A program made the position numbers and the translations under genes. Shown piece after piece: positions 18,388-46,455 of a stretch of 48,292 nt of DNA; position 1 is the first letter of the stretch, and each line of letters begins with the position of its first letter. Under the pieces are notes generated by a model. It was not told where the DNA came from and ran no database searches. It saw only the letters and a program-made list of their open reading frames with translations. Source of the stretch: a virus; IMG/VR virus record IMGVR_UViG_3300008107_004926, positions 1 through 48,292 of that record. One strand, 5' to 3'.

Positions 18388-19020
18388 CTAAATGTAATCT
18401 TTATATATTTTTTGCTCTCTTAAATCTTTATACATCCAACTACCACCACAATGTGGATTGAATGATTTTATTTTATCAGAATGAAATATTTCCAATCCTC
18501 TTTTAGCTTGCTCTGGACTCATATACATATGCCAACCCACACATTGGAAATCATCATCTGAATATAATTTGGTTTTATCTCTACCATCGTATATCATAGG
18601 TCTTGCCCATTCATTGAATTCATCATCATTGGTTAGTATCATACCACCAGTCCCAATGTTTAAAATTTTTTTAAAATGAAATGATAATATCATATAGTTT
18701 TCACCATCATACATATCTTCATAAAATGCGGTTGCCGCATCTACAATTGGAACATTTCCTAATTTATACATACCATCCCAATCATAATCTTCAAATACAG
18801 GTATATTATTACTTAATATAATTTGATTTGGAACTGATACATAGGTTTTAGCAGGTATAGTAATTTGTTCTTTTTGTATATCCAAATAATGCAAAACCAA
18901 ACGGATTGCATTTGAGTTTGAATCACATGCAATAGCATGTTTTGAACAGCAATACGATGCTATTTCATTTTCAAAATGAGTAACCCAATCCCAACTATCA
19001 TTTATTGTATATTCTCTCAT
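18388..19020 (-). CDS. Short DegT/DnrJ/EryC1-type PLP aminotransferase
   Basis: 210 residues against about 370 in the family. FENEIASYCCSKHAIACDSNSNAI near 16-39 matches the cofactor phosphate loop region, IPAKTYVSVPNQI near 55 the substrate segment, and IVDAATAF near 92 supplies the Asp facing the pyridine nitrogen. SFHFKKILNIGTGG has the lysine (Lys118) expected to bind PLP. The whole C-terminal dimer domain is missing, as the protein stops soon after MSPEQAKRG near 190. The family aminates keto-sugars. It overlaps the upstream SGNH gene by 23 nt. It could be a minimal active enzyme or a remnant. Confidence 0.85.
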   Translation of the reverse strand: MREYTINDSWDWVTHFENEIASYCCSKHAIACDSNSNAIRLVLHYLDIQKEQITIPAKTYVSVPNQIILSNNIPVFEDYDWDGMYKLGNVPIVDAATAFYEDMYDGENYMILSFHFKKILNIGTGGMILTNDDEFNEWARPMIYDGRDKTKLYSDDDFQCVGWHMYMSPEQAKRGLEIFHSDKIKSFNPHCGGSWMYKDLREQKIYKDYI

Positions 19021-27356: not shown

Positions 27357-27890
27357 TTAATTATAATATTTTTCAGGGTATTCATTGATTAAATAAATAC
27401 CTTTATTTTTAATAGCATATTCATAATTTAATTGTATATCTACTACTGTCTGGCAATCTAATACTTCAACGGTCTTTAACATACTTTTAAACTCCTCTAT
27501 ATAATTTCCTTTATGTTGATGACCGGGGTCAAGTGGTTTATCCGAACCCTTACCGATTCTAATTATGATATGTGGAGTAACTCCAGTCATTAATGGATAT
27601 TTGTCTATGTGGTTTACTAACTGATTTGTTGCACATATAATAAAATCCCATCTCGGATAAAATGTAACTACAAATTTACCCGCCATAGCTAATCCTAAAC
27701 TCATACCCATTTGAGTTTCTTCCATAACAGGCACTTCAATCATTTTTTCTTTATCAACATAATCTAATGTAGTTGACATTGGATTACCTTTCCACAATAT
27801 TTGTTGTCCAATGAATATAGAATTTTCTACATCATTACACATTTTCATTGCTTCCGATAACTGATCTTTGTAATTAGTGTAACTTATCAT
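27357..27890 (-). CDS. TPP enzyme, pyrimidine-binding (E1 beta/transketolase Pyr) subunit
   Basis: 177 residues, matching only the Pyr domain of E1-beta/transketolase proteins. VPVMEETQMGMSLGLAMAG near 53-71 carries the conserved Glu (Glu58) that activates the thiamine N1', and the PGHQHKGN segment near 120 fits the loop by the active site. The C-terminal transketolase domain, normally another 120-150 residues, is absent. Its partner is the PP-domain gene at 30128-30757; two SDR genes and an 82-residue gene lie between them. Such pairs transfer two-carbon or acyl units to sugars or keto acids. Substrate unknown. Confidence 0.82.
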   Translation of the reverse strand: MISYTNYKDQLSEAMKMCNDVENSIFIGQQILWKGNPMSTTLDYVDKEKMIEVPVMEETQMGMSLGLAMAGKFVVTFYPRWDFIICATNQLVNHIDKYPLMTGVTPHIIIRIGKGSDKPLDPGHQHKGNYIEEFKSMLKTVEVLDCQTVVDIQLNYEYAIKNKGIYLINEYPEKYYN

Positions 27891-30127: not shown

Positions 30128-30757
30128 TTAAAATACTATCCATTTACCACTGCCATAATGTGGGTATTTAGATTGGTATTTATAATGTATTACATCTGAT
30201 GGTATATCTCGTTTAACCTTCCAAGTTTCTTTTGTAGGTGTATATGTTGATACACCATTATCTTCAACTACAAAGTATAATGGTAGGTCAAAGTTCCTAG
30301 CATATTTATGAACCTCATAAAATATACCACTTTCAAAACTCATATCCCCAACGAATACCCAAACCTTATCATCCCCACCATCTTTCTTTATAGCATAAGC
30401 TACTCCTAATGCAATAGGTAAAGTTCCACCTACAATAGCAGATGCGTAGAATCTATCAGATTCACTGCATAATGTAATAGATTTTCCTTTAAGAATTTCT
30501 TCTTCAATCCAATTTGGAGAAATTCCTTTTAATAATGCATGATAATGTGAACGCCAAGTTGAAAATACCCAATCAGTTTTTTTGATTCTTTTGAATATTT
30601 CTATTAAGTGTTCTTCATTTCCGTTTGAAAGATGAACAGGTCCTTTTATTTTAGCATCTTCCCAATGCTTTACTATTAGGTTTTCAAATTCAATTAACCC
30701 TTCTTTAGTTTGTTCAATATCTCTTACAATTGGATATTGTTCTAAATTTTGTATCAT
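30128..30757 (-). CDS. TPP-dependent dehydrogenase E1 alpha-like (PP-domain) subunit
   Basis: 209 residues from the ATG at 30757, chosen because it forms an ATGA overlap with the RmlC-type gene; a start at 30796 would overlap it by 43 nt. The thiamine diphosphate motif is GDMSFESG (Gly137-Asp138) with VEDNGVSTYTP about 28 residues later (Asn167), the GD(x25-30)N pattern. SHYHALLKG and GGTLPIALGVAYAIK precede it as in E1 alpha. It would need the Pyr-domain protein at 27357-27890 for a complete active site. The normal E1 alpha has about 330 residues, so this is a reduced form. Confidence 0.85.
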   Translation of the reverse strand: MIQNLEQYPIVRDIEQTKEGLIEFENLIVKHWEDAKIKGPVHLSNGNEEHLIEIFKRIKKTDWVFSTWRSHYHALLKGISPNWIEEEILKGKSITLCSESDRFYASAIVGGTLPIALGVAYAIKKDGGDDKVWVFVGDMSFESGIFYEVHKYARNFDLPLYFVVEDNGVSTYTPTKETWKVKRDIPSDVIHYKYQSKYPHYGSGKWIVF

Positions 30758-31299
30758 CTGTCTCTTTTTTGTAGTATTGGATTTGTTGTTGGCCATTCCA
30801 TTTGATATTCAGCATCATTCCACTTTACCACACCTTGCTCATCTGCATCAACATAACCATCTTTGTAAAATAAGTTATAATGAAACATACAATCAGTTAG
30901 GGCGTAGTGTCCGTTCGCAAATCCCGGTGGAACTAATACTTGGTTTCTATCTTTTTCAGTTATCATAAAAGATTCCCAATCACCGAATGTTGGAGAATTT
31001 TTTCTCATATCTAATACAACTAAATAGATATCACCAACTGCTGCTTGAACTAATTTCCAAGTCTTATTATCATAATGCAATCCTCTTAATACACCTTTGT
31101 ATGATTTTGAAAATCTACCATGAATACTAATTTCAGATTTATCATAATGAATATGTCTCATTACAGGATGCTCGTCTGAATGAAATGTTGTAAAAATTTC
31201 ACCTCTATACTCTCTATAAATTGATGGAGTAAAAGTTGGAACTTCGTAACCAAATACTTTTGATGGAGTTTCTATAAACTCATCCCATTTGTTGCTCAT
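30754..31299 (-). CDS. rfbC: dTDP-sugar 3,5-epimerase family protein (RmlC/RfbC)
   Basis: 181 residues, full family length. GRFSKSYKGVLRGLHYD holds the catalytic His75. KLVQAAVGDIYLVVLDMRKN, SPTFGDW, and VPPGFANGHYALTD are the cupin strands of RmlC, and LFYKDGYVDADEQGVVKWND covers the substrate lid and WP end. RmlC epimerises dTDP-4-keto-6-deoxyglucose at C3 and C5; related enzymes act on CDP- or GDP-sugars. No RmlA, RmlB or RmlD is recognised here, so the substrate may come from the host. It begins 1 nt after the preceding SDR and overlaps the TPP gene by ATGA. Confidence 0.9.
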   Translation of the reverse strand: MSNKWDEFIETPSKVFGYEVPTFTPSIYREYRGEIFTTFHSDEHPVMRHIHYDKSEISIHGRFSKSYKGVLRGLHYDNKTWKLVQAAVGDIYLVVLDMRKNSPTFGDWESFMITEKDRNQVLVPPGFANGHYALTDCMFHYNLFYKDGYVDADEQGVVKWNDAEYQMEWPTTNPILQKRDR

Positions 31300-34598: not shown

Positions 34599-35623
34599 GC
34601 TCTTACTATATCAGTTGTAATGCAATGAGGTCCACCACTAAATGTTCTACTATGTCTCATTCTAACAGGAATTGATTCAACTCCCCATTTTTTTAATTCC
34701 TTCATCAATAATATCTGATGTTCTTCAACCATAACCAATTTTTCATTGATAGAAAGTATATTCATGCCCAACCAAGGTGAAGCAGGACACCAATCTTCCA
34801 TTACTTGTGTTGGGTATGGTTCGGGTGCCCAAATTCTATCCCAATTTCTAAATATTTCAGGTATATTACTATCATTAACTCTTGATGGGTTCAATAATAC
34901 TAATCCTTCTCTTAATAATACAAATGTAGTATCTATATGAATGTATGCATATACATTTTGAACTCTATGAACATTATAATCTTGTGATATATTTTCTTTT
35001 AGGTAACTTTCTAAATAATCAGCTCCTGCTAAATTACCCGTATTAGAAACTAAATAAATAATATCATTATTTGCTCTTAATACGTTTGCCGCATCAAATA
35101 CAGCATCAGGTCCATCCATTAAAGTAGGTCTACCTAAATCTTCTCTACTATACATATCATCACCTAAGTTTGGTTTTGGAAAATCAATCCAATGGTCGGG
35201 ATGTATTAGTGGTTTACAGGTTTCTGATTCAAATTGTCTATGCCTTAATGTCATAGGCGTTGCTATAACTTTATCACCAACTACCAACATACTATCACGT
35301 GGACAGTAGTTATAATACCCATCTACTTGCCATAAATCATTACCTTTTTTTTCGGTAAAATCTCTTTTTAAAGGTCTATGAACTTTTACGCCCAATTCTT
35401 TTAATTTACTACATATATTTTCCAAATCTTCATATGTTTCTTCCATAACCTTTTGTGGATATGGTCCTGTTGGGATATTTTGGAATTCTTCATCAGTAAG
35501 ATGGGCATAATCTATACAATGTAAGGCTTTATCTTTTACAGTTGGTATTTGTGCACCATCTACCGTACCTACGATGATTTCTTTTAAATCACCCCATTCA
35601 TTATTAGAGTGTGGTATTATCAT
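34595..35623 (-). CDS. Glycine/inosamine-type amidinotransferase
   Basis: 342 residues from the ATG at 35623 (reading MIIPHSNNEWGDLKEIIVG); a start at 35662 would add 13 residues and overlap the previous gene by 59 nt. The NEWGDLKEIIVG opening, Asp in AVFDAANVLR, His in YAYIHIDTTF, and Cys in FSGGPHCITT make the AGAT-type catalytic triad (Asp177, His229, Cys334 in this numbering). These enzymes move the amidino group of arginine to an amine, as in creatine or streptomycin synthesis. In this island an amino-sugar acceptor made by an aminotransferase is plausible. An arginine-deiminase-like activity is the alternative. Confidence 0.9.
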   Translation of the reverse strand: MIIPHSNNEWGDLKEIIVGTVDGAQIPTVKDKALHCIDYAHLTDEEFQNIPTGPYPQKVMEETYEDLENICSKLKELGVKVHRPLKRDFTEKKGNDLWQVDGYYNYCPRDSMLVVGDKVIATPMTLRHRQFESETCKPLIHPDHWIDFPKPNLGDDMYSREDLGRPTLMDGPDAVFDAANVLRANNDIIYLVSNTGNLAGADYLESYLKENISQDYNVHRVQNVYAYIHIDTTFVLLREGLVLLNPSRVNDSNIPEIFRNWDRIWAPEPYPTQVMEDWCPASPWLGMNILSINEKLVMVEEHQILLMKELKKWGVESIPVRMRHSRTFSGGPHCITTDIVRA

Positions 35624-37043
35624 AAAATAGTTTTTTAAATTGTTCTTTAACATTTCCTGCATTTAACATATAATCTGCATTACTGAAAAGAACGTTTTGG
35701 TTATGTAATAAAATTGAGTTAAAAATTGTTTTATACCAATTATGAATTTCGTTAATATCCATTTTTGATAATCTTTCTATTTCAGCCATTATCATTTTAA
35801 AACGAAGTTCAGGGTCTAATTCATTATCATAAGATTCATCTATAAATGGTGCAAATGTTCTAAATCCTAATTTTTTTAATTCCTTTAAAGCATTAGCAGG
35901 TCCCATAAAAATAAATGGTTGTAAATGACCCATTGGTTTCCAAGTCTTTTCGGAAAAATAACCTCCTATTTCAAAGAAATTAGTTTCCGATGTTATGTGT
36001 ATATACGAATCTAAATATGGTTCTTTATTTTCAAAATTGAAACCCCATACATTTTCTAAATCTTCAAAATCAATTGTTCGTTTAGGACTTTCATTTTTCA
36101 ATCGTGCAAATTCATCAGATAAAACTTTTGCATATTCGGTATCTTCAATATGCATACTAATGTTTTCACCATCCATTTCAAACAATTGCATAGATGTTAC
36201 ATCGTATGAAATTAAAAATTGATCTAATATATTTAATTTGTTAAATAGACAAGTTGAATATATCCTATGAGGTCTTAACCTTCTATTCAACATTAAGAAT
36301 TTTTTATTTCGTATCTTATCTAAATCAACATCATAATAATTTACTACTGAGCATTTATTTGAGTAATTATTAAATTCGGTATGTTTTCCATTATGTATTT
36401 CTAACATTTCTTTGGCCTTTGCATGTAAAGACCATGCCAAATATAATAATTTGATATTATCCTCATCCGGTATATTTTCCAACTTTTTAAATATTTCATA
36501 ATTCATATTAGTATAATAATCAGAACTACAAAATATAATTTTATTTAAAGGTATGTTAAATTGTTTGGCATCTTCGTGTATTACTTTCCACCAATTAAAA
36601 TCAATCGTTCCTTCATTTGAGTAATTTACAAAAAGATAAACATTTGGAACTTCTCTTATTAAACTCTTAGCATTATTTGATATAAAATGAAAGAATGATT
36701 TCTTTTCATTATATGTAAAATCATATCCATAAGTTGCACTTGCACCACCAAATGGTGTTACATTGTATAGATAAAATGATTCTGGGTTTGGTCTATAATT
36801 TGGGGAGCAATCAAATCCATCAAACATATCCGAAACAGTAAATGTATTTTTTACAATCGGTTCAATTACCTGTTCACCATGCCAAACTGAAATAGCTCCA
36901 TACTTTTTTTCATATTCATTTAATGTAATATGATCAAATCTAAAATCATTTTCGATTAAAGTTTGTAGAAAATGGGGATTTAACGCATTTGGAAGATACC
37001 CAGATGGAGTTAGATAATCATATAATAAATTTATTTCTGTCAT
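35604..37043 (-). CDS. GT-B-like putative glycosyltransferase paralogue 3
   Basis: 479 residues, the largest of four copies. The N-terminus INLLYDYLTPSGYLPNALNP is shared with the next gene upstream (YEFKTPNGYFPIG). MLNRRLRPHRIYSTCLFNKL near 252 and FSEKTWKPMGHLQPFIFMG near 365 are the shared motifs, then LKKLGFRTFAPFIDESYDNE and a helical KMIMAEIERLSKM tail. The pattern suggests an N-terminal acceptor domain and a C-terminal nucleotide-sugar domain. Function inferred, not matched. Lies 1 nt from the next paralogue upstream, so these two are a tandem pair. Confidence 0.65.
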   Translation of the reverse strand: MTEINLLYDYLTPSGYLPNALNPHFLQTLIENDFRFDHITLNEYEKKYGAISVWHGEQVIEPIVKNTFTVSDMFDGFDCSPNYRPNPESFYLYNVTPFGGASATYGYDFTYNEKKSFFHFISNNAKSLIREVPNVYLFVNYSNEGTIDFNWWKVIHEDAKQFNIPLNKIIFCSSDYYTNMNYEIFKKLENIPDEDNIKLLYLAWSLHAKAKEMLEIHNGKHTEFNNYSNKCSVVNYYDVDLDKIRNKKFLMLNRRLRPHRIYSTCLFNKLNILDQFLISYDVTSMQLFEMDGENISMHIEDTEYAKVLSDEFARLKNESPKRTIDFEDLENVWGFNFENKEPYLDSYIHITSETNFFEIGGYFSEKTWKPMGHLQPFIFMGPANALKELKKLGFRTFAPFIDESYDNELDPELRFKMIMAEIERLSKMDINEIHNWYKTIFNSILLHNQNVLFSNADYMLNAGNVKEQFKKLFYDNTTL

Positions 37044-37044
37044 T

Positions 37045-38424
37045 TTAAAATAATGTTTCTAATACTTTCTGATGGACTTCTTTGCGTTCATCCATTTTTA
37101 TTAAAAGGTTTCTATTATGAATTAATTTTGGTATAACACTTTGATACAAACTATGAATTTCTTCAATAGGTAATTCGCAAAGTCTTTTTACATTATTTAA
37201 TATCATTTTCATTCGAATATCTGCATTTTTAACATTATCGTATCTTTCATCAAAGAATTCAGGAAATGTTTCAAATCCAAGTTCTCTTAACACCTGCAAT
37301 GTGCCTGGATTACCCCACACTATAAACGGATGGAAATATATCATAGGCCTTACTGTCTTTTCAGTTATAAAACACCAACTATCATCTGCTGATGTTTCAC
37401 TTACTACTGAAAAATAAGTGTCCATCCACATTTCTTTTTTTGTAAAGAAATTGTGCATATCGGAAACTAAATATGGATCTTCATAATCCGCAACAAATGG
37501 ATATTTTGATTTAATTAAATCTCTATATTCTTCATTACCAATTTCATCTGCAAATCTATCAAATTCATCCGAATGTAATAAAGATGTTATACTTTTATCA
37601 AATAGATTATTTTTTATAAATTGTAAAAGTAATTTAACTCTATGCAATCTACCACTATTTCTATTTAAAAATAAATAATATTTGTTTCGTTTTAAATCAA
37701 TTATTTCCGAATCAGTTGGAACTGAATATTCTATATTTTTATCTACAATTATATCGGATGTATTATTTGTTTGATGAAAATAATCCATTACAGTTTGGCC
37801 AGGGTCATATATTAAAAACTGAACACCTTTAACTTTCATAAATGATTTTGAATTTGTTTTTACCAAAAACTCATCATACATATCTTGCACATTGCAAGTA
37901 TTTGTAACAAATACTATTTGATTATCCGATTTTAAACCCACTTCTTTATGGAATCGTTGGAAACTTTCAAAGAATTTGGAATCAAAATAATAAGAACCTT
38001 CCTTATTATCCAAAACCATAAGTTTAAAGTTTTGCCTTTCGCTGAATAACTTTTTACTTTTTTGTGATAATACATTTGTTAAGTCAGTTCTAATTATGTA
38101 ATCTAATATAGTTTCATCATGACTTGTATCTATACAATATAAATTTATATCATTATTAATTTCATCATCGGTTAATTCTGATAACATTTTTATAGGAATG
38201 CCAACATCACCCAATGTTAACACATCGTATGTGGATGCACATTCATTTAGAATTTTAAATCTATCAGAATATCCCATTCTATGTGCAATTGTTCCATGCT
38301 GATATTCCAATTCATTTATATAATCAAATAAAATAGGTAATGAACGATATTCCGCACCAATTGGAAAATAACCATTTGGTGTTTTAAATTCATAAATGTA
38401 ATTTATTTTTTTATTTGTTTGCAT
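37045..38424 (-). CDS. GT-B-like putative glycosyltransferase paralogue 4
   Basis: 459 residues from the ATG at 38424 (MQTNKKINYIYEFKTPNGY); a start at 38445 would add seven residues and lies deeper in the LamG-like gene. Shared motifs are FLNRNSGRLHRVKLLLQF near 255 and CFITEKTVRPMIYFHPFIVW near 360, followed by LRELGFETFPEFFDERYDN and KMILNNVKRLCEL. Tandem partner of the 35604-37043 gene. It is read here as a probable glycosyltransferase; no DxD metal motif is needed in GT-B folds. Confidence 0.65.
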   Translation of the reverse strand: MQTNKKINYIYEFKTPNGYFPIGAEYRSLPILFDYINELEYQHGTIAHRMGYSDRFKILNECASTYDVLTLGDVGIPIKMLSELTDDEINNDINLYCIDTSHDETILDYIIRTDLTNVLSQKSKKLFSERQNFKLMVLDNKEGSYYFDSKFFESFQRFHKEVGLKSDNQIVFVTNTCNVQDMYDEFLVKTNSKSFMKVKGVQFLIYDPGQTVMDYFHQTNNTSDIIVDKNIEYSVPTDSEIIDLKRNKYYLFLNRNSGRLHRVKLLLQFIKNNLFDKSITSLLHSDEFDRFADEIGNEEYRDLIKSKYPFVADYEDPYLVSDMHNFFTKKEMWMDTYFSVVSETSADDSWCFITEKTVRPMIYFHPFIVWGNPGTLQVLRELGFETFPEFFDERYDNVKNADIRMKMILNNVKRLCELPIEEIHSLYQSVIPKLIHNRNLLIKMDERKEVHQKVLETLF

Positions 38425-39196
38425 AATCTTCGTAGAAATCATCATCAGTTAAATAAGTTTCCTCATCTTCAATATATAGATTTTTTTGCATAAAGTTACA
38501 ATGACCGGATAAATCCCATATCTTATATATGTTTGTTAGATTAAAGTTAAAATAAAATACAATATCAAAAAGAGTTTTACTTAAGTTAGTTACATCATCT
38601 TTAGTTACATCTAAAAACTTTATAATTTGTTCATAAGTGTAATCATTAGTTCCAATTAAACCCAATTTATAAATTGTGCAAGCCGTAAATAACCTATCTC
38701 TCTTTGGAACTACTTTACTATAGTTACCACATCCTATATTATAAGGTGTTTCTGAGTAATCTACTAATTTACCTTCATATTTTTGTTCTAATATAATTGG
38801 TTCTTTAAATTTAGCCGAATTGATATGAACCTTAAAGTGCCTTTCACCAACTGTATGTTGTATAAACACAAAATATCTATCATTTGGTGTGATATTTTGA
38901 TTTGCAAATAATTCTATGTGAATTGAATTCCATTTATATTGCCCATCAATTCCAACAGTCCAATAATCCCAACACAATAGAGAATAATCAGGTTTTATTT
39001 TCTTTATCATAATACCCATGTGCATTCCGGGTCTTGCTATAATTGCATATTCGGCATCATAAGCTTTTGAATCCAATTGGAAATCCACAAACAAAGTAAA
39101 ATCACCATTCATTACCGAATGTGGTTCGTATGTTGATAAATTATACCTTTGTTTTGGTAGAATTATATACGGCTCTTTTTCTTTAACTTTTAACAT
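38411..39196 (-). CDS. LamG/concanavalin-like domain protein
   Basis: 261 residues with the strand pattern of a LamG jelly roll: FTLFVDFQLDSKAYDAEYAI, YSLLCWDYWTVGIDGQYKW, YFVFIQHTVGERHFKVHIN and ETPYNIGCGNYSK, then an acidic tail. No enzymatic residues. It is similar in layout to the LamG inserts of the two galactosyltransferases nearby (41869 and 43284) but stands alone. Likely binds a glycan or acts as accessory module for the radical SAM or transferase proteins. Overlaps the next gene by about 14 nt. Confidence 0.75.
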   Translation of the reverse strand: MLKVKEKEPYIILPKQRYNLSTYEPHSVMNGDFTLFVDFQLDSKAYDAEYAIIARPGMHMGIMIKKIKPDYSLLCWDYWTVGIDGQYKWNSIHIELFANQNITPNDRYFVFIQHTVGERHFKVHINSAKFKEPIILEQKYEGKLVDYSETPYNIGCGNYSKVVPKRDRLFTACTIYKLGLIGTNDYTYEQIIKFLDVTKDDVTNLSKTLFDIVFYFNFNLTNIYKIWDLSGHCNFMQKNLYIEDEETYLTDDDFYEDYANK

Positions 39197-40632
39197 AACG
39201 CTTTACAATTTTCATAAAAATCTGCTAATTCAGGATACACTTTTTTGAAATCAGTTCCTCTTCTTCTATCATGCTCACTAAAGAACTTATAGAAATCTTT
39301 TCTTTGTTTTTCAACAACCGCAGGATCTTTATCTGATAACATCCAATCATATATTCTTTTAATCTTTTGAACTTCAATATCGGAATAACCAATCAATCTT
39401 CTATCAAATGATGGTGTTGCATAGTATTCAACTAATTGAGTGTTTCTATATACATTATTTGCAAACTCCATTGGTAACACCTGAACAGTCTGATGATGTG
39501 GGAATCTTAAATATGATGAATCCAAAAATACTGCCGAATTCCAATATCTATCAGGCGATGCATACTCTCTTTTTAAATCATAAACACCATGTATCAACTT
39601 ATCAAAGTTTGGAACTGATAAAGCGTTATAGGTTGTCATAAATGTTAGGTTAACCCTCTTACATTGAGTAAGTATCTTATTGATATTATCCCAAAATTTA
39701 TTGAATTCTAAGCCATGTCTAATATATTCAGCTTGCTCACCCCAACTATCGCATGAAGTGAATATAATGAATTCATGCACTCTATCTTCTTCCTCAATTT
39801 GCTTTATCTTCTCAATAAACTTATCAATCAATTTATCAGGCACACCTAAGTTTGAATTGATAGCCAATTTAAGATTTTTATTTGGATTTTCTTGTGCTAA
39901 TATGTAATCAAATACATCCCAAGTATCTTTGTGCATCAATGGTTCACCGCCGGTGATTCTAAATGTATGTAAATCTCTATATAATTCAGGCCACCATGTC
40001 CAAAATGCTTCTACATAAGGATTATGATCTTTCATAGGAATAGGCATCTTACCTTCATTCAACATATGAAGTTTATCATTAAATCTATCTGATGTTGGAT
40101 ATGCACCAAACTCATCTATTTCTTCCATCCAACGAGTTGAGAATTGTGGTGCACAATAAGAACATTTAAAATTACAAGCATTTGAGAATGATACCTCAAC
40201 ATATTTTGGATTGTAATCCTGTCTCCAATCTAAAGTTTTAATAGCATCTAAATGTGGCGATGACCAACTTTCCGATGATTTGAATACTCTATCAGAAAAT
40301 CTATCTGAGTTATCTTCAACATTCCAACAATACCCACACTCTTTAGGTCTTTTACCTTCTAACATTTCTCTTCTTAAAGATTTCTTATATCTCGTATTAT
40401 GAAGAGCCGTTGGGTTTCTACTCAATTCACTTAATGGTATTTTGTGGGTGCCGGGGTGATGGCATGAGTGAGTATGACCTATTTGTAGGTGCATAGTAAC
40501 TTGTGTCCATTTAGCCAAACAAAATCCACAACCAACTGAATTTAAATCCTCTTTCATTTTTGAAAATATAGGATTTTCAGCTATACCATCATCGTAGGTT
40601 GGTGTTTTTTTATGTTCTATTTCTTCTATCAT
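39190..40632 (-). CDS. Radical SAM protein with extra cysteine clusters (twitch/SPASM-type) 1
   Basis: 480 residues. CNFKCSYC gives the 4Fe-4S triad Cys153, Cys157 and Cys160 in NACNFKCSYCAPQFS. Before the core are GCGFCLAKW and a CHHPG segment near 57, plus ECGYCW near 98, with REMLEGKRPKEC, as in twitch-domain radical SAM proteins. ITGGEPLMHKD near 225 is the SAM-binding GGE strand. Such enzymes modify peptides or sugars. The next gene is a second one of the same type. Confidence 0.92.
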   Translation of the reverse strand: MIEEIEHKKTPTYDDGIAENPIFSKMKEDLNSVGCGFCLAKWTQVTMHLQIGHTHSCHHPGTHKIPLSELSRNPTALHNTRYKKSLRREMLEGKRPKECGYCWNVEDNSDRFSDRVFKSSESWSSPHLDAIKTLDWRQDYNPKYVEVSFSNACNFKCSYCAPQFSTRWMEEIDEFGAYPTSDRFNDKLHMLNEGKMPIPMKDHNPYVEAFWTWWPELYRDLHTFRITGGEPLMHKDTWDVFDYILAQENPNKNLKLAINSNLGVPDKLIDKFIEKIKQIEEEDRVHEFIIFTSCDSWGEQAEYIRHGLEFNKFWDNINKILTQCKRVNLTFMTTYNALSVPNFDKLIHGVYDLKREYASPDRYWNSAVFLDSSYLRFPHHQTVQVLPMEFANNVYRNTQLVEYYATPSFDRRLIGYSDIEVQKIKRIYDWMLSDKDPAVVEKQRKDFYKFFSEHDRRRGTDFKKVYPELADFYENCKALC

Positions 40633-40633
40633 A

Positions 40634-41869
40634 TTATAACTCTATTTTGCAAATCGTTTTGTAATCCGTATTATTCAACTTATCTAACTTTTCAATCATA
40701 TCCTTCATATCACCCAATGAATAATTGGATGGGGTATTCATATAATTTAGTATTGATGTTAACTGAGTTTTTGTTTTTTCAGATTCCATCTTTTTTATTT
40801 TTCTTTCAAATAATTTAGATATTCTATTCTTATCCTTTTCTGATAAATTATTAATTGATGACCATTCCGGTGACCAAGCATAAAAGAAATCAATTGTTTC
40901 GGTTGATTGGATATAACCCTCATCAATCATAAAATCAATAAAATCAAATATGTGTTCAACGTTAAAAATAGTTGTTGTATATTGAAAACTATAACTAAAC
41001 CCATCCGATATACCATTTTGAGATACCGGTGTTGCGTGGTTTAATATTTCTTCCATATTTTTTACAAAGGTAGTATGTTTAAATCCAGTCCTTTGATATT
41101 CACCTACTTCAAACACACCATCACACGAAATAGCCAATTGAACTTTTCTGAATGATTTCCAATAATTTATCAATTCATCTTCATCATATCTAATTGTAGA
41201 TAAGTTTGTATTATAATGTATAGATAATGCTTTATGAATACCTCTATCAGTTTCCTCTTCTTCTACATTTTCATATAACCATTTTAATAGTTTGTAATGT
41301 TCCGGTGTAATTAATGGTTCACCACCTGCAAAGTAAAAACTTTTTATCTTTCCCAAATATGGAATTATATCTTCAACAATAGTTTTACTAGCTTTTAATA
41401 CTTTGGTATCTTCACCTGATAGAAACGGAAACCAACCACCATGTTCTATTTTTTTAGCATCCTCATACCAATTAGATGAAAAACTATGATTACACATTCT
41501 ACATTTAAAATTACATAGATTTGAAAAACGAATATCTATGTGTTGAAATTCCAATGGAACTGAATTATCTATACCAACATCTGGCATAGTCCATAATGTG
41601 TTTGAATTAAACATTTGACGTGGTGATGATTCACCTCTATCTTCTTTAGAATAACAAATATCACATACTTTATTTCGTTTACCCTCTAACATATCAGAGC
41701 GTAATTGTTTATATTCATCTGAATTAAATATCTCTTCAATTGTAGAATTTCTTAGGGATTGTTTATTATCAAATCCACCAGCTATACAACATGGTTTAAC
41801 TTCGCCATCGGGCTGAGTGTATAAGTGTATGAAAGGTAATATACATATTGTATCGTTATTACAACTCAT
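40634..41869 (-). CDS. Radical SAM protein with twitch/SPASM-type cysteines 2
   Basis: 411 residues. CNFKCRMC in SNLCNFKCRMCNHSF provides Cys119, Cys123 and Cys126. The N-terminal part has CILPFIHLYTQPDGEVKPCC and KVCDICYSKED, the extra cysteine set of the twitch family, with DMLEGKRNKVC. AGGEPLITPEHYK near 178 is the GGE motif. Starts by TAATG overlap with the galactosyltransferase-like gene. Paralogous to the downstream gene, so the pair may act in sequence or as a heterodimer. Confidence 0.92.
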   Translation of the reverse strand: MSCNNDTICILPFIHLYTQPDGEVKPCCIAGGFDNKQSLRNSTIEEIFNSDEYKQLRSDMLEGKRNKVCDICYSKEDRGESSPRQMFNSNTLWTMPDVGIDNSVPLEFQHIDIRFSNLCNFKCRMCNHSFSSNWYEDAKKIEHGGWFPFLSGEDTKVLKASKTIVEDIIPYLGKIKSFYFAGGEPLITPEHYKLLKWLYENVEEEETDRGIHKALSIHYNTNLSTIRYDEDELINYWKSFRKVQLAISCDGVFEVGEYQRTGFKHTTFVKNMEEILNHATPVSQNGISDGFSYSFQYTTTIFNVEHIFDFIDFMIDEGYIQSTETIDFFYAWSPEWSSINNLSEKDKNRISKLFERKIKKMESEKTKTQLTSILNYMNTPSNYSLGDMKDMIEKLDKLNNTDYKTICKIEL

Positions 41870-43287
41870 TATAATGTAACATTTATTAATTTGGCGTTAT
41901 CCGCAATATCTTCTATATTAACGAGTTCATAAACCAATGAACTCATTCCATCTGCTTTGTAATCTATCTTACCTTGCTGCATTTCAGTTATATATCGTTG
42001 TTCGTTTCTTGCAGTTGTTTCTCCCTTAACCCACTTACCTTTTACTAATCCCTCATCTTTATGAGCCAAACATTCGAACCTACCTTCTCTTCTATATGGT
42101 AATGTATATTTAGGTATTTTTATATCACCATTCACATAAGGTGCATCTAACACAAATGTATCTGTATTAGTTCCTTTGTTAAAATCTAATTTAACTTTAG
42201 CTCCTTCCGTTGGAATTTCTTTATGTATATTTTTAATTTGTTCATCAGTTAATACATTATCCCAAACATAAACCTTAGCTATATCTCCTTTGAAGAATAG
42301 AGATACATCATCGTATGGTGATGTTGGAGTTGCTCCTATGTAAAGATGTTTAGAACCATAGTTCCTTAATCTACCTTCATAGTTAATTGGAGATTTACTT
42401 CCATTACCAATACTTTCATCCACCTCATCACCATTTAAAAATAATCTCGCGGTTTTAGTTTCATCATCTATAGTTGCGGTAATCCAAGTCCATTGGTTTT
42501 CATATCGTTTAGCCCACATATAATTGTGAGTATCTCTATTAGTCCAAAATTGAAATGAAAGAGCTCTACTATTATTAAAAGATAACCCATAATCGTAACC
42601 AGGTATTCTGAAGATTGGATACTCTACATATTGTTTAGATTTATCTCCAATCAAATATATAGGAGCTTTGTTAGGGTCATGTTCTGCTCTAACTAATACT
42701 GATATAGTATGTGTATTACTTGTTAAACTTCTTAATTTTTGATGATACTGAATAACAACTGCTGAACTAAATCCATTGAAGTTAATATATCTATGGTCAT
42801 CCATTTCAACATCCAAATATTCAGTATTTACATAACCTTCCAATTGACATCTCCAAAACAAATCATCATCTTCCATTCCCCAATCCCAATAATCATTTGA
42901 GTAACCATTGGTTTTTTCTACTTGCTCTTTTGTAAAAAGAATAACACCACCAAAGTATTCGGGATAAGACATCCCATAATTATACTTTGAAAGTTTAGTT
43001 GCTATATGAATTGGTGTTTCTTCGGGATAACTATAATCACAATCATCCGATGGAATCATATCAACATCATGCCAAGCTATGTAATCACACCCATCTTCAA
43101 ATGCGTGTTTAGCTGCTATGTTCTTCATAGCACCTCTATTAAATAACTTATCATCCGTTTGATGTGCTATATAAAAAGCATGTTCAATTCCTTTCTTATT
43201 TAGATGTTCCGTTAATGCAGGAATTAATTCATCCAAATGTTTTTGTCTGTTTCTATAAGGAATACATATGCCTAACTTGTGACTCAT
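41869..43287 (-). CDS. GT7 (beta-1,4-galactosyltransferase-like) with inserted LamG domain 1
   Basis: 472 residues. Residues 1-150 are the GT7 core: GICIPYRNRQKHLDELIPAL, FNRGAMKNIAAKHA, HDVDMIP (Asp74-Val-Asp76) and YWDWGMEDDDLFWR near 133. Residues 165-400 are a LamG-type jelly roll (for example FNGFSSAVVIQ, YMWAKRYENQWTWI). The tail GRFECLAHKDEG...ADGMSSLVYELV matches the C-terminal part of the galactosyltransferase fold. The LamG is therefore inserted inside the catalytic fold, not appended. GT7 enzymes transfer galactose from UDP-Gal. Overlaps the twin gene by ATGA. Confidence 0.88.
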   Translation of the reverse strand: MSHKLGICIPYRNRQKHLDELIPALTEHLNKKGIEHAFYIAHQTDDKLFNRGAMKNIAAKHAFEDGCDYIAWHDVDMIPSDDCDYSYPEETPIHIATKLSKYNYGMSYPEYFGGVILFTKEQVEKTNGYSNDYWDWGMEDDDLFWRCQLEGYVNTEYLDVEMDDHRYINFNGFSSAVVIQYHQKLRSLTSNTHTISVLVRAEHDPNKAPIYLIGDKSKQYVEYPIFRIPGYDYGLSFNNSRALSFQFWTNRDTHNYMWAKRYENQWTWITATIDDETKTARLFLNGDEVDESIGNGSKSPINYEGRLRNYGSKHLYIGATPTSPYDDVSLFFKGDIAKVYVWDNVLTDEQIKNIHKEIPTEGAKVKLDFNKGTNTDTFVLDAPYVNGDIKIPKYTLPYRREGRFECLAHKDEGLVKGKWVKGETTARNEQRYITEMQQGKIDYKADGMSSLVYELVNIEDIADNAKLINVTL

Positions 43288-44702
43288 AAGCCTACTATAA
43301 TATGTGTTTGATTATTAACTTTTGTTCTCGAGTGTTCGGTAAAGTGGCAATTACTTAACCCTTCTTCGTTTGTATTAATATGTCCTTTACTTACTTCGTT
43401 TTGAAATTTAAGTTGATTGTATCTAGTTGTTTTTTCTCTCCATTCATTATTGGTATATCCATTCTCATCATGCGCTAGTAACTTAAAAGTGCATTCTCTT
43501 CTGAAGGGAACTTCTATTAATTTACTATCTTCAATATCGTATCCAACCATTTCACAATTTACAATTTCACCATCATTACCTCTACCACTCAAATCTATCA
43601 GTTTGTAATCTTTAATGAATTTAGCATCATAATATAATTTTAATTTATGTGCTGATTTATAATCTTTAAAGTTTTGAGTTAACCCAAAGTATTTGTTATT
43701 ACTAATATCAAATATTTCATCGGGCTCTAAAGCCTCATCGTAAATTGCTACTGAGTTGATTAACCCATTAAACATCTTCTCATCATCAGTTCTTAATGGG
43801 TCTGCACAACCTAAATAAAAATATGGTTCTCTGATATAATTGTATAAAGGAGTTTTATACATCAATCGTTTAACAAACTCACCATCCTGATACATAATAA
43901 TATGTTTCTTAGTTGGATCGATTGTTATAGCTACGTTTGTTTTATAGTGAGGTTTAATATCTGTGCTTATGTATATTACTTCATTCTCATTATCAAAGAT
44001 TTCAAAGTTGTATCTCTTATAAGAACTATATGATATCAATAAATCATAACCAGGTATACCAACCACACCATAAATATCTTTATCCTTTTTGTAGTTTAAA
44101 ACAGTTTCATTTGGTGAGAAAGAAACAAATATGGTTAAAGGTCTCCTAACATTAATTACATTCTTACCTTTAACATACGCATTATTACCATTAAACTTTA
44201 ATGCTGCCGTATTACCACCAATGTTTTTTATTTCTTTCTTTTCTAAAGGAATTCCGTTCAACTTACAACGGTAGAGTAAATCATCATCTTCAAATCCCCA
44301 ACCCCAATAGTTATTTGAGTATCCGTTTATACGTCTAAACAAATCTACGGGAAATAAGGTAACACCTCCGAAGTATTCATCGAATAGTGTTCTTTTAGTT
44401 TTTGAATCAGATACGAAGTTTGTGGCTAGGTGTAATGGCACCGATGAAAAGCTGTAATCAACCTCTACCGGCAACATATCTATATCGTGAAATACAACAT
44501 AATCACAATTTAGTTTCTCAGCGGTTAAGAAACCGATGTTTAGAAGTTTACCTCTATTAAATGCAGTTCCACCATCTTGTTCCACTACAATTAGTTCGAA
44601 CTCAATACCGGCTGCGTTTAAATGTTTTGTAATACTTTTTTTGAAACTAAGCAAATGGTTATACCTATCTCTATAGGGAACTATTACACCTAATTTAGCC
44701 AT
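43284..44702 (-). CDS. GT7 (beta-1,4-galactosyltransferase-like) with inserted LamG domain 2
   Basis: 472 residues. GVIVPYRDRYNHLLSFKKSI, FNRGKLLNIGF, FHDIDMLP (Asp73-Ile-Asp75) and YWGWGFEDDDLLYRC near 133 make the core. Residues 155-395 are a LamG domain (LKFNGNNAYVKGK, FYLGCADPLRTDDEKMFNG). RRECTFKLLAHDENG and NEEGLSNCHFTEHS near 410-460 are the returning fold. Same insertion point as its tandem twin, although the LamG sequence differs more. The metal-binding and EDDD residues are intact, so catalysis is likely. Confidence 0.88.
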   Translation of the reverse strand: MAKLGVIVPYRDRYNHLLSFKKSITKHLNAAGIEFELIVVEQDGGTAFNRGKLLNIGFLTAEKLNCDYVVFHDIDMLPVEVDYSFSSVPLHLATNFVSDSKTKRTLFDEYFGGVTLFPVDLFRRINGYSNNYWGWGFEDDDLLYRCKLNGIPLEKKEIKNIGGNTAALKFNGNNAYVKGKNVINVRRPLTIFVSFSPNETVLNYKKDKDIYGVVGIPGYDLLISYSSYKRYNFEIFDNENEVIYISTDIKPHYKTNVAITIDPTKKHIIMYQDGEFVKRLMYKTPLYNYIREPYFYLGCADPLRTDDEKMFNGLINSVAIYDEALEPDEIFDISNNKYFGLTQNFKDYKSAHKLKLYYDAKFIKDYKLIDLSGRGNDGEIVNCEMVGYDIEDSKLIEVPFRRECTFKLLAHDENGYTNNEWREKTTRYNQLKFQNEVSKGHINTNEEGLSNCHFTEHSRTKVNNQTHIIVGL

Positions 44703-44708
44703 AACTTA

Positions 44709-44885
44709 TTACTCTTCAGTATTTTTGAATGTTTTGTGCCACTCATACATATAATACTGCATTCTTTCACTCCACTCATCCTTATCGATTTCTTCAAACC
44801 AGATGGTAAGTGCATCTAAAGAGTTAGCAATTTTTTCTAACGCTTTAACTTTTCTTTGTTCTAATAACATTTCTTCTTCTGTCAT
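44709..44885 (-). CDS. Small acidic protein (58 aa)
   Basis: 58 residues from ATG at 44885, which forms an ATGA overlap with the glycosyltransferase stop, to TAA at 44709. It starts MTEEEMLLEQRKVKALEKI and is helical, with WFEEIDKDEWSERM in the second half. No family recognised. The 6-nt gap to the following gene and the translational coupling support it as real. Confidence 0.72.
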   Translation of the reverse strand: MTEEEMLLEQRKVKALEKIANSLDALTIWFEEIDKDEWSERMQYYMYEWHKTFKNTEE

Positions 44886-45733
44886 AACGATACTATTTTT
44901 TTTATTAACTTATTCCAACCTCTATATCTGCGAAATTCAGCTATTGCTGAGTTTTCAAACATAAATTCATTCTTATATATATCTATTAAAAATTTAGATT
45001 TTCGTAATTCTTCATAGAGTTTTTTATACTCATCTGAGTAAGCATATTCTTGTTCAATATCGGCTACTGCTTTCACTCTTTCAATACAACTAGCATCCCA
45101 TTTAAAGTGATGAACCTGAACTGAATATGTATCAATAGGTGCTATCAATGGATGATTCCAACCTTGCCATCTCCAAGTAGTATGCCCATCAAATTCAGCG
45201 TAGTGTTGACCGGGTGTTATTTTTACATAACCTTTCTTTACACAAATCTTATTAGGACAAGCTCCACTCATTGGATGTCTAAAAAATCCCATCATAGGGA
45301 ATTGTTTGAATATAAATTCATCCGTTATATGAGGGAATGTTCCATCTTTTCCAACTCTATCAATAAATCCACCTCTAATTACATCCCATCCATTTCTTTC
45401 ACAATCGCTAATCATATCTTTAAGATTATCTTTTGGATATAAATGAAATTCATCAATATCTGCAATTACCCACCAATCATCTCCATATTTAGAAGTTGCC
45501 TGATTATATAATTTAGTAACCTCTTCCCAATCAAATATCCTATGCCTTGTTGTTCCTACAATCTTAACATTAAATAAATTATCGGTTATAGCTCTAACCT
45601 CATCATCTATATTTGGATTCAAATCTGAATTATATGTAACGATACAAATCTCATCTACATATTTTGTGTAGTGAGAAATAAAATGTGGTAATAATTCCAC
45701 ACCATGTCCAATAACAGTAACTAATCTTATCAT
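44882..45733 (-). CDS. Glycosyltransferase, GT2/GT92-type
   Basis: 283 residues. DDWWVIADIDEFHLYP near 85-100 is the metal-binding DxD strand (Asp92, Asp94), preceded by HRIFDWEEVTKLYNQA. HHFKWDASCIERVK near 208 is the conserved C-terminal His segment of these enzymes. The N-terminus LVTVIGHGVELLPHFISHY is the opening Rossmann-like strand and helix. No membrane segment is visible, so it is probably cytosolic. Coupled by ATGA to the methyltransferase gene before it. Confidence 0.85.
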   Translation of the reverse strand: MIRLVTVIGHGVELLPHFISHYTKYVDEICIVTYNSDLNPNIDDEVRAITDNLFNVKIVGTTRHRIFDWEEVTKLYNQATSKYGDDWWVIADIDEFHLYPKDNLKDMISDCERNGWDVIRGGFIDRVGKDGTFPHITDEFIFKQFPMMGFFRHPMSGACPNKICVKKGYVKITPGQHYAEFDGHTTWRWQGWNHPLIAPIDTYSVQVHHFKWDASCIERVKAVADIEQEYAYSDEYKKLYEELRKSKFLIDIYKNEFMFENSAIAEFRRYRGWNKLIKKIVSL

Positions 45734-46455
45734 TTTCTATTTAATAAAGTTATACCAGTTGATGAAGGTTTAGTAGGTAGTATTTTATGATTGAAAAGGT
45801 TTATTATATTCCAATCTTTACTATCACTTAACTTTTTTATCAACTTAGCAGGTCCATCAAATTTATCCCAATGTTTTTTAGAATCTTCCGATACAATCAA
45901 TTCGTTTTCATAAGATTCATCAGTATCATGTATCATTATAATACCTTTATCTGAAAGTATCGTTGAATATAAATCAAAATCCAACTTAACTCCTTCATAT
46001 GAGTGGTCACCATCAATAAAAAGAACATCTATTTTAATATCTTGCTTTACAAAGAAATCATAATATGCTTTTTCCGATGTTTCTTTTATAAAACGTGGAT
46101 GAAACGCACTTCTAAAAAGAGAACTCTCATCTTCTATATCGGATTTACCACCAATACCATTACAAGCATCAACAACATAAGTTGCACCAATATCTCCCCA
46201 ATTTTTATCGTTGTTTCCTTCAAATATTTTTTGTTCCCACAAATCCATTCGGGCTTGCGTCATAATTCGTGGTATAAATCCACCACCACTTCCAATACAC
46301 ACACATACCTTTGCTCTCATATGTTGAATGATGGAATATACCAATAATCCATCACCCATATGCTCTTTAGTAGCACCATGAGTCCATCTATAAGGAATAT
46401 CTACACCTTCATTTGTTGTTATAAAGTTCTCTATGTAGAATTGGTCAGTTATCAT
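45730..46455 (-). CDS. Class I SAM-dependent methyltransferase-like protein
   Basis: 241 residues. VCVCIGSGGGFIPRIM near 50-65 is the SAM-binding Gly loop. DVLFIDGDHSYEGVKLDFDL near 157 followed by KGIIMIHDT is the pattern of the Methyltransf_24/cephalosporin hydroxylase-like group, where the Asp-x-Asp-His binds metal. Probably O-methylates a small molecule or glycan. It overlaps the glycosyltransferase by 4 nt, and 26 nt separate it from the GT-A gene upstream. Confidence 0.85.
   Translation of the reverse strand: MITDQFYIENFITTNEGVDIPYRWTHGATKEHMGDGLLVYSIIQHMRAKVCVCIGSGGGFIPRIMTQARMDLWEQKIFEGNNDKNWGDIGATYVVDACNGIGGKSDIEDESSLFRSAFHPRFIKETSEKAYYDFFVKQDIKIDVLFIDGDHSYEGVKLDFDLYSTILSDKGIIMIHDTDESYENELIVSEDSKKHWDKFDGPAKLIKKLSDSKDWNIINLFNHKILPTKPSSTGITLLNRK

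Follow-up and report, generated by a model that had tools for sequence, protein, structure and literature searches.

Among described enzymes, the animal beta-1,4-galactosyltransferases (CAZy glycosyltransferase (GT) family GT7; B4GalT1 and B4GalT7) are close counterparts of the proteins considered here, and their catalytic fold has no inner domain. In B4GalT1, a lid closes over the donor and bears the Mn ligands M340 and H343, and the helix at 354-361 touches the acceptor (PMC6198961). GT-A enzymes in general have been described as gaining acceptor specificity through three growing hypervariable regions, HV1-3, namely beta3-alphaC, beta6-beta7 and the C-terminal tail (PMC7185993). Here we analyse a stretch of viral DNA of 48,292 nucleotides, positions 1 to 48,292 of IMG/VR record IMGVR_UViG_3300008107_004926, referred to in full as the window. 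Two adjacent genes of the window encode GT7 proteins, P0001 and P0002, in which the fold appears from its sequence to be interrupted by a LamG domain: a whole globular domain at a different point of the GT-A fold, beside the mobile lid, which is kept across many uncultured phages.

Like these phage proteins, the GalNAc-transferases (GT27) and MGAT4A (GT54) combine a catalytic GT-A domain with a lectin, which shapes glycoprotein specificity (PMC4432651, PMC9296478). In their case the lectin is a separate domain at the chain end and is not known to lie inside the fold. PGAP4, the glycosylphosphatidylinositol-GalNAc transferase, likewise has an insertion that divides its GT-A fold (PMC5785973), but it belongs to an unrelated lineage, and its insert consists of two transmembrane helices rather than a lectin domain. 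Lectins of the Laminin_G_3 (PF13385) or pentraxin fold, which the phage insert matches both by profile and by fold (pentraxins, PAPP-A, BACOVA_03559), stand alone or in chains, whereas the phage LamG sits within an enzyme fold. Finally, uninserted GT7s of bacteria and phages (L090 from Parachlamydiaceae; L116, L135 and L136) have the same GT7 core in 190-290 residues, without LamG between EDDD and the His strand, and offer a direct template for the blocks on either side of the insert. The literature searched, which covered few subscription journals, contained nothing relevant on LamG with a galactosyltransferase in phages.

Both proteins are encoded on the minus strand by open reading frames (ORFs) of 472 residues, which are as described in an original prediction made from the DNA letters. 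P0002, the more variable copy (GT7-LamG type 2; 43284..44702), lies transcriptionally upstream of P0001, the more conserved copy (type 1; 41869..43287), with a 4-base overlap between them. The same prediction had described a GT7 core through WGxEDDD followed by LamG, and the Pfam families GT7N, GT7C and Laminin_G_3 were indeed found in both. Above the curated cut-offs, GT7N (PF13733) covers residues 3-84 of P0001 and 3-80 of P0002, and GT7C (PF02709) residues 94-152 and 104-154, respectively (E 1e-16 to 1e-19). Laminin_G_3, with a cut-off of 27.6 bits, covers residues 186-352 of P0001 (E 3.5e-15, 56.9 bits) and 220-330 of P0002 (E 6.4e-09, 36.6 bits); the LamG profile also exceeds its cut-off in 67/68 and 47/55 relatives. 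Sequence searches matched P0001 to B4GalT7 and B4GalT1 (E ~1e-29), with the match confined to residues 2-154. The two phage proteins are 29% identical to each other, and their alignment runs end to end, the LamG part included.

Each chain can be divided into three parts, all on the minus strand. First, residues 1-152 form the N-terminal GT7 block, at 42832..43287 in P0001 (with PYRNR, FNRG, HDVD and WGMEDDD; seen by Pfam, by the B4GalT1/B4GalT7 match and by Foldseek) and at 44247..44702 in P0002 (seen by Pfam and by hhalign of its family). Second, LamG and its linkers occupy about residues 155-398, an insert of ~244 residues in both proteins, at 42094..42825 in P0001 (Laminin_G_3, pentraxin fold, missing from uninserted GT7s) and at 43509..44240 in P0002 (Laminin_G_3, ConA-like fold matches). 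Third, the GT7 fold returns at about residues 399-472. In P0001 this C-terminal block (41869..42093), assigned by hhalign, bears the metal-ligand His H409, the lid and the DGMSSLVYELV strand; in P0002 (43284..43508) it bears LAH and EEGLSNCHFTEH, and is homologous by profile comparison to the C-terminus of uninserted GT7s.

The insertion was assessed against uninserted bacterial GT7s of about 190-290 residues from Parachlamydiaceae, Simkania, Planctomycetota, Desulfuromonadales, Taibaiella and others. First, the part of the P0002 family before the insert aligned to template columns 2-153 (hhalign, E 3.5e-67). Second, when the C-terminal 78 residues were taken from 28 relatives, type 1 and type 2 alike, and searched by themselves, they fell on template columns 150-223 (97.2% probability, E 4.1e-11), which bears out the returning C-terminal GT7 strand of the original prediction, a piece without a Pfam match in P0001 and P0002. 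Compared directly with B4GalT1, the C-terminal block is collinear with a weak match (4.2 bits), so that the bacterial uninserted GT7s were needed as intermediates. Third, when aligned to the uninserted-GT7 model, 243 related ORFs divide into two blocks; the medians of the model positions flanking the break are 149 and 150, and the gap between has a median of 245 residues. Judged from these alignments, a break at the same model position in so many ORFs is far beyond chance. Lengths are also bimodal, with ORFs of 200-280 residues without the insert and of 400-570 residues with it. Among the long ORFs, L094:4978-6678 and L097:5398-6675, from metagenome-assembled genomes (MAGs) of Elusimicrobia, are not insertions; there a GT2-like domain and an uninserted GT7 are fused in one chain.

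At the level of sequence, we consider it established that the GT7 fold is interrupted by LamG at one fixed point, that is, by a domain insertion. The original claim of an insertion and not a fusion thus holds, on the basis of profile matches, hundreds of relatives and uninserted homologues in bacteria and other phages. An end-to-end fusion of two proteins is ruled out, as the C-terminal block is collinear with GT7 beyond the insert; an assembly or frameshift artefact is ruled out by the occurrence of copies with 97% identity on different contigs (L003, L004) and by the hundreds of relatives. One figure needed correction: the EDDD motif had been placed 30-40 residues from the C-terminal strand in animal enzymes, whereas the distance to the DGL strand is about 53-56 residues in animal and bacterial GT7s.

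For the site of insertion, residue equivalences to human B4GalT1 were counted by hand from motifs, back from the lid His (H409 of P0001 = human H343). On this numbering the insert, which lies after the xED helix and before the strand bearing the C-terminal metal-binding His, takes the place of a few residues near 329-333 and leaves about five residues between its end and the lid (338-365). We also considered the insert as one of the known GT-A hypervariable loops and rejected this, as its position fits none of HV1, HV2 and HV3. Both proteins share with the animal enzymes the N-terminal fold, the DxD, FNR and WGxEDDD motifs, the metal-binding His and the DGL-type C-terminal strand. In all 71 type-1 relatives, the equivalents of R187, F222-N223-R224, D248, D250, Y282, Y285, W310, E313, D314, D315 and H343 are invariant; the M340 equivalent, unlike in the animal enzymes, is an invariant Cys. 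Among the 73 relatives of types 2 and 3, the equivalents of R187, F222-N223, D248, D250, Y285, D314 and H343 are retained in at least 71, those of R224, W310, E313 and D315 vary in a minority, and Phe is the usual acceptor aromatic; in type 2, the residue at the M340 metal position varies. Animal enzymes are limited to galactose by the Tyr that corresponds to Y285 (Y289 in the bovine enzyme), and because this Tyr is kept here, uridine diphosphate (UDP)-galactose is our guess for the donor. Two third tandem copies, L060:1781-3235 and L066:1757-3211, have lost the EDD base (GGGFHWID and GGSFHWID) and lie beside two intact copies; from these motifs they are probable pseudo-enzymes.

AlphaFold2 models, built with alignments of relatives, had a mean predicted local distance difference test score (pLDDT) of 93.1 and a predicted template modelling score (pTM) of 0.87 for P0001, and of 93.7 and 0.88 for P0002. 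The comparison with galactosyltransferase structures foreseen in the original prediction came out in part: the N-terminal ~152 residues of P0001 superpose on B4GalT1 at 1.2-1.3 Å in Foldseek, with P0002 similar, but the local alignments end at the insert and leave the C-terminal block outside the aligned region. In both models the order of elements after the insert is strand-helix-strand-strand, as expected for GT7, and from this order together with homology the C-terminal strands would pack on the GT7 sheet. It is through homology that the check set with the original prediction, whether the final 60 residues join this sheet, was answered. The insert was matched separately in both proteins, to pentraxins, PAPP-A and the Bacteroides carbohydrate-binding protein BACOVA_03559.

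The architecture is not confined to the window. A scan of viral contigs gave 215 relatives, so that the search for further insertions, which had been suggested with the original prediction, was productive both there and in the 243 ORFs that split alike. The best 80 of the 215 were read, and in 76 of these 80 loci type-2 homologues lie beside type 1. Over two viral scans and a genome scan, 72 loci have two copies, 36 have three and 13 have one; some contigs occur in both viral scans, and these counts are of loci, not of independent genomes. Within each locus the tandem copies are all on one strand, and neighbouring copies often overlap by about 4 bases. Thus, "twice in tandem", as first described, is right for the window and understates a layout that is conserved across uncultured phages, often with three copies.

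In the genome scan, the insert occurred at seven loci, each of them on a MAG contig. In four of them (L083, L084, L086 and L088) the enzymes sit in the same gene cassette as in the phage loci, which points to phage contigs, and these are probably phage contigs that were binned; two others (L085, L089) are 3-kb contigs. The remaining one, L087:5950-7437, is a single GT7-LamG gene whose surroundings, on a contig of 66 kb in a bacterial MAG of 3.4 Mb, are unlike the phage cassette; it may belong to the cell itself, to a prophage or to some other virus. Apart from these seven, the complete GT7s that were examined in the genome scan are uninserted (L100 is a fragment). Uninserted GT7s also occur on viral contigs of 373-434 kb (L116, L135, L136), so that both forms exist in large viruses. 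In contrast, tblastn found no GT7 in 50,697 catalogued phage records. Catalogued phages have therefore not shown the design, which, on the contigs recovered, is widespread in uncultured T4-like phages.

In a tree built without the insert columns, and without L097 (the GT2-GT7 fusion) and three other rows, 64 inserted proteins fall on one side of a branch and 31 uninserted ones on the other, with a Shimodaira-Hasegawa-like approximate likelihood ratio test (SH-aLRT) value of 87. One insertion followed by tandem duplication would be the simplest history. The two types differ in how their domains have varied: the type-1 LamG core has 57% mean identity, with 49/171 columns at 95% or more, and the type-2 LamG 32%, with 6/151 such columns, and the GT7 cores, at 79% and 59%, each exceed their own LamG. 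Our reading is that these could be two enzymes of related chemistry in a glycan pathway, the partner of one being constant and that of the other changing.

On balance, we think it somewhat probable that P0001 and P0002 are galactosyltransferases of a phage glycan island, with LamG selecting or holding the acceptor; from the comparisons above we infer that the proteins are active enzymes, that UDP-galactose is the donor, that LamG binds the acceptor, and in which order the events took place. Both would be GT7-type, metal-dependent, inverting glycosyltransferases, probably using UDP-galactose, in a phage pathway that builds or modifies glycans. A single event would have placed LamG, a domain of pentraxin fold, in an ancestral phage or bacterial GT7 of ~220 residues, behind the helix that follows WGxEDDD and ahead of the lid strand bearing the metal-binding His; the inserted gene would then have duplicated in tandem. 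LamG would most likely bind the acceptor, a growing glycan or glycoprotein, beside the lid, where holding it could fix specificity or retain the chain. This is supported by the collinearity of the N- and C-terminal blocks with uninserted GT7, on which they join at one and the same position, by catalytic positions invariant in type 1, by an insert that stops just short of the lid, the part of B4GalT1 whose helix touches the acceptor, by the match of LamG to carbohydrate-binding and pentraxin folds, by the tree branch that divides inserted from uninserted proteins, and by a cassette with GT2, methyltransferase, sugar epimerase and RmlC-like genes. That LamG may present acceptor glycans, as originally suggested, is compatible with the position of the insert. 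However, some points weigh against this: LamG domains also act as protein docking or virion adhesion modules (PMC7824862), the greater variability of the type-2 LamG relative to its own GT7 core (32% vs 59%) suits weak constraint as well as changing acceptors, and the single-origin branch is not strongly supported at an SH-aLRT of 87. If LamG does set the acceptor, these enzymes would offer a naturally modular way of reprogramming glycosyltransferases, and would help to show how large uncultured T4-like phages use their sugar islands; the design may be a built-in way to choose the recipient of a sugar.

The alternative that survives best, which we hold to be possible but unlikely, is that LamG is a docking module that tethers the enzyme to another protein, be it free LamG, part of the virion, or the radical S-adenosylmethionine (SAM) or GT partners, so that an enzyme assembly forms, and does not touch the acceptor glycan. 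Genes for a radical SAM protein and for a free homologue of LamG lie next to those of the enzymes, and jumbo-phage tail fibres and other virion parts carry LamG domains (PMC7824862). Nevertheless, either chain end would suffice for docking, which does not require a position next to the lid, and free LamG occurs in 26/80 loci as against 80/80 for the inserted enzymes, a weak test given loci cut at 5-kb flanks and a divergent free LamG.

A doubtful extension of the acceptor-binding reading makes LamG an intramolecular specifier at the lid hinge that would govern how the lid closes and which acceptor is chosen, a role filled in trans by alpha-lactalbumin in the case of B4GalT1, with diversification of the type-2 LamG retargeting the same core to a new glycan in each phage lineage. 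We find it improbable that the tandem enzymes, two or three in number, work as a polymerase pair on a polysaccharide of repeating units, and that LamG keeps hold of the chain as it grows so that synthesis is processive. Two distinct GT7 types do nearly always occur together on one strand, often overlapping, and GT7 lies in one GT-A clade with the GT domains of chondroitin polymerases (PMC7185993), but no exporter, polymerase or chain-length gene was recognised among the genes scanned, and the base is sometimes lost in third copies. Very improbable, despite the third copies without an EDD base and the minority of variants elsewhere, is a GT7 fold that is no longer an enzyme and serves, together with LamG, to bind sugar or in a structural role, for instance as part of the virion, since every catalytic position checked is kept in 71/71 type-1 relatives, the donor, metal and base positions are each retained by 71/73 or more of the type-2 and type-3 relatives, and the neighbouring genes are biosynthetic.

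The acceptor-binding reading draws on this neighbourhood, the members of which in the window are all on the minus strand. The constant partner of the cassette is a twitch-domain radical SAM protein of 480 residues (39190..40632; NF033640, E 8.7e-106), present in 77/80 loci, and a second twitch/SPASM radical SAM protein of 411 residues (40634..41869; NF033640, E 2.2e-96) is present in 23/80. On the other side lie a GT2-type glycosyltransferase of 283 residues (44882..45733; PF13704, E 1.1e-06; 74/80 loci) and a methyltransferase of 241 residues (45730..46455; PF13578, E 2.9e-11; 63/80 loci). Another GT and a sugar epimerase are also frequent in the 80 loci. The free LamG protein, P0003 (38411..39196, 261 residues), which the original prediction had pointed out, has no Pfam match, but homology between its family and the inserted LamG is clear (hhalign, 99.4% probability, E ~2e-21).

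Judged by the tail sheath and baseplate hub of the window and by the T4 gp23 capsid gene in related records (9/9 long ones, of 103-287 kb), the window is from a large uncultured T4-like phage. The best match of its tail sheath is Microcystis phage Mel-JY01 (47% identity), and tape measure and T4 baseplate hub genes are also present. The tail genes are followed by ~36 kb of mostly sugar-related or unassigned genes (11407-47195). Host recognition clusters of pelagimyophages and cyanomyophages likewise form a large island by the structural genes, with glycosyltransferases and radical SAM cassettes, and in pelagimyophages have been proposed to modify the host O-chain (PMC7029224). In the text of that source, GT8 is the commonest GT family, and galactosyltransferase and laminin are not mentioned.

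The island of the window also encodes a NodU-type carbamoyltransferase, a B12-type radical SAM protein, short-chain dehydrogenase/reductase epimerases, an RmlC-like epimerase, 2-oxoglutarate oxygenases and several GTs. A DegT/DnrJ-type aminotransferase (18388-19020) has 210 residues, compared with about 360 in its family, and matches the model in two stretches; it is possibly internally shortened. A transketolase-like enzyme occurs in two parts, 27357-27890 and 30128-30796, a pyrimidine-binding half and an E1/thiamine pyrophosphate half, with epimerase genes between them. At 35604-38445 there are two proteins of ~470 residues without Pfam matches, one of them common to 25/80 loci, with a FITEKTxRPxxYxxPFI-type stretch that resembles, by eye only, the C-terminal motif of fucosyltransferase-type GTs.

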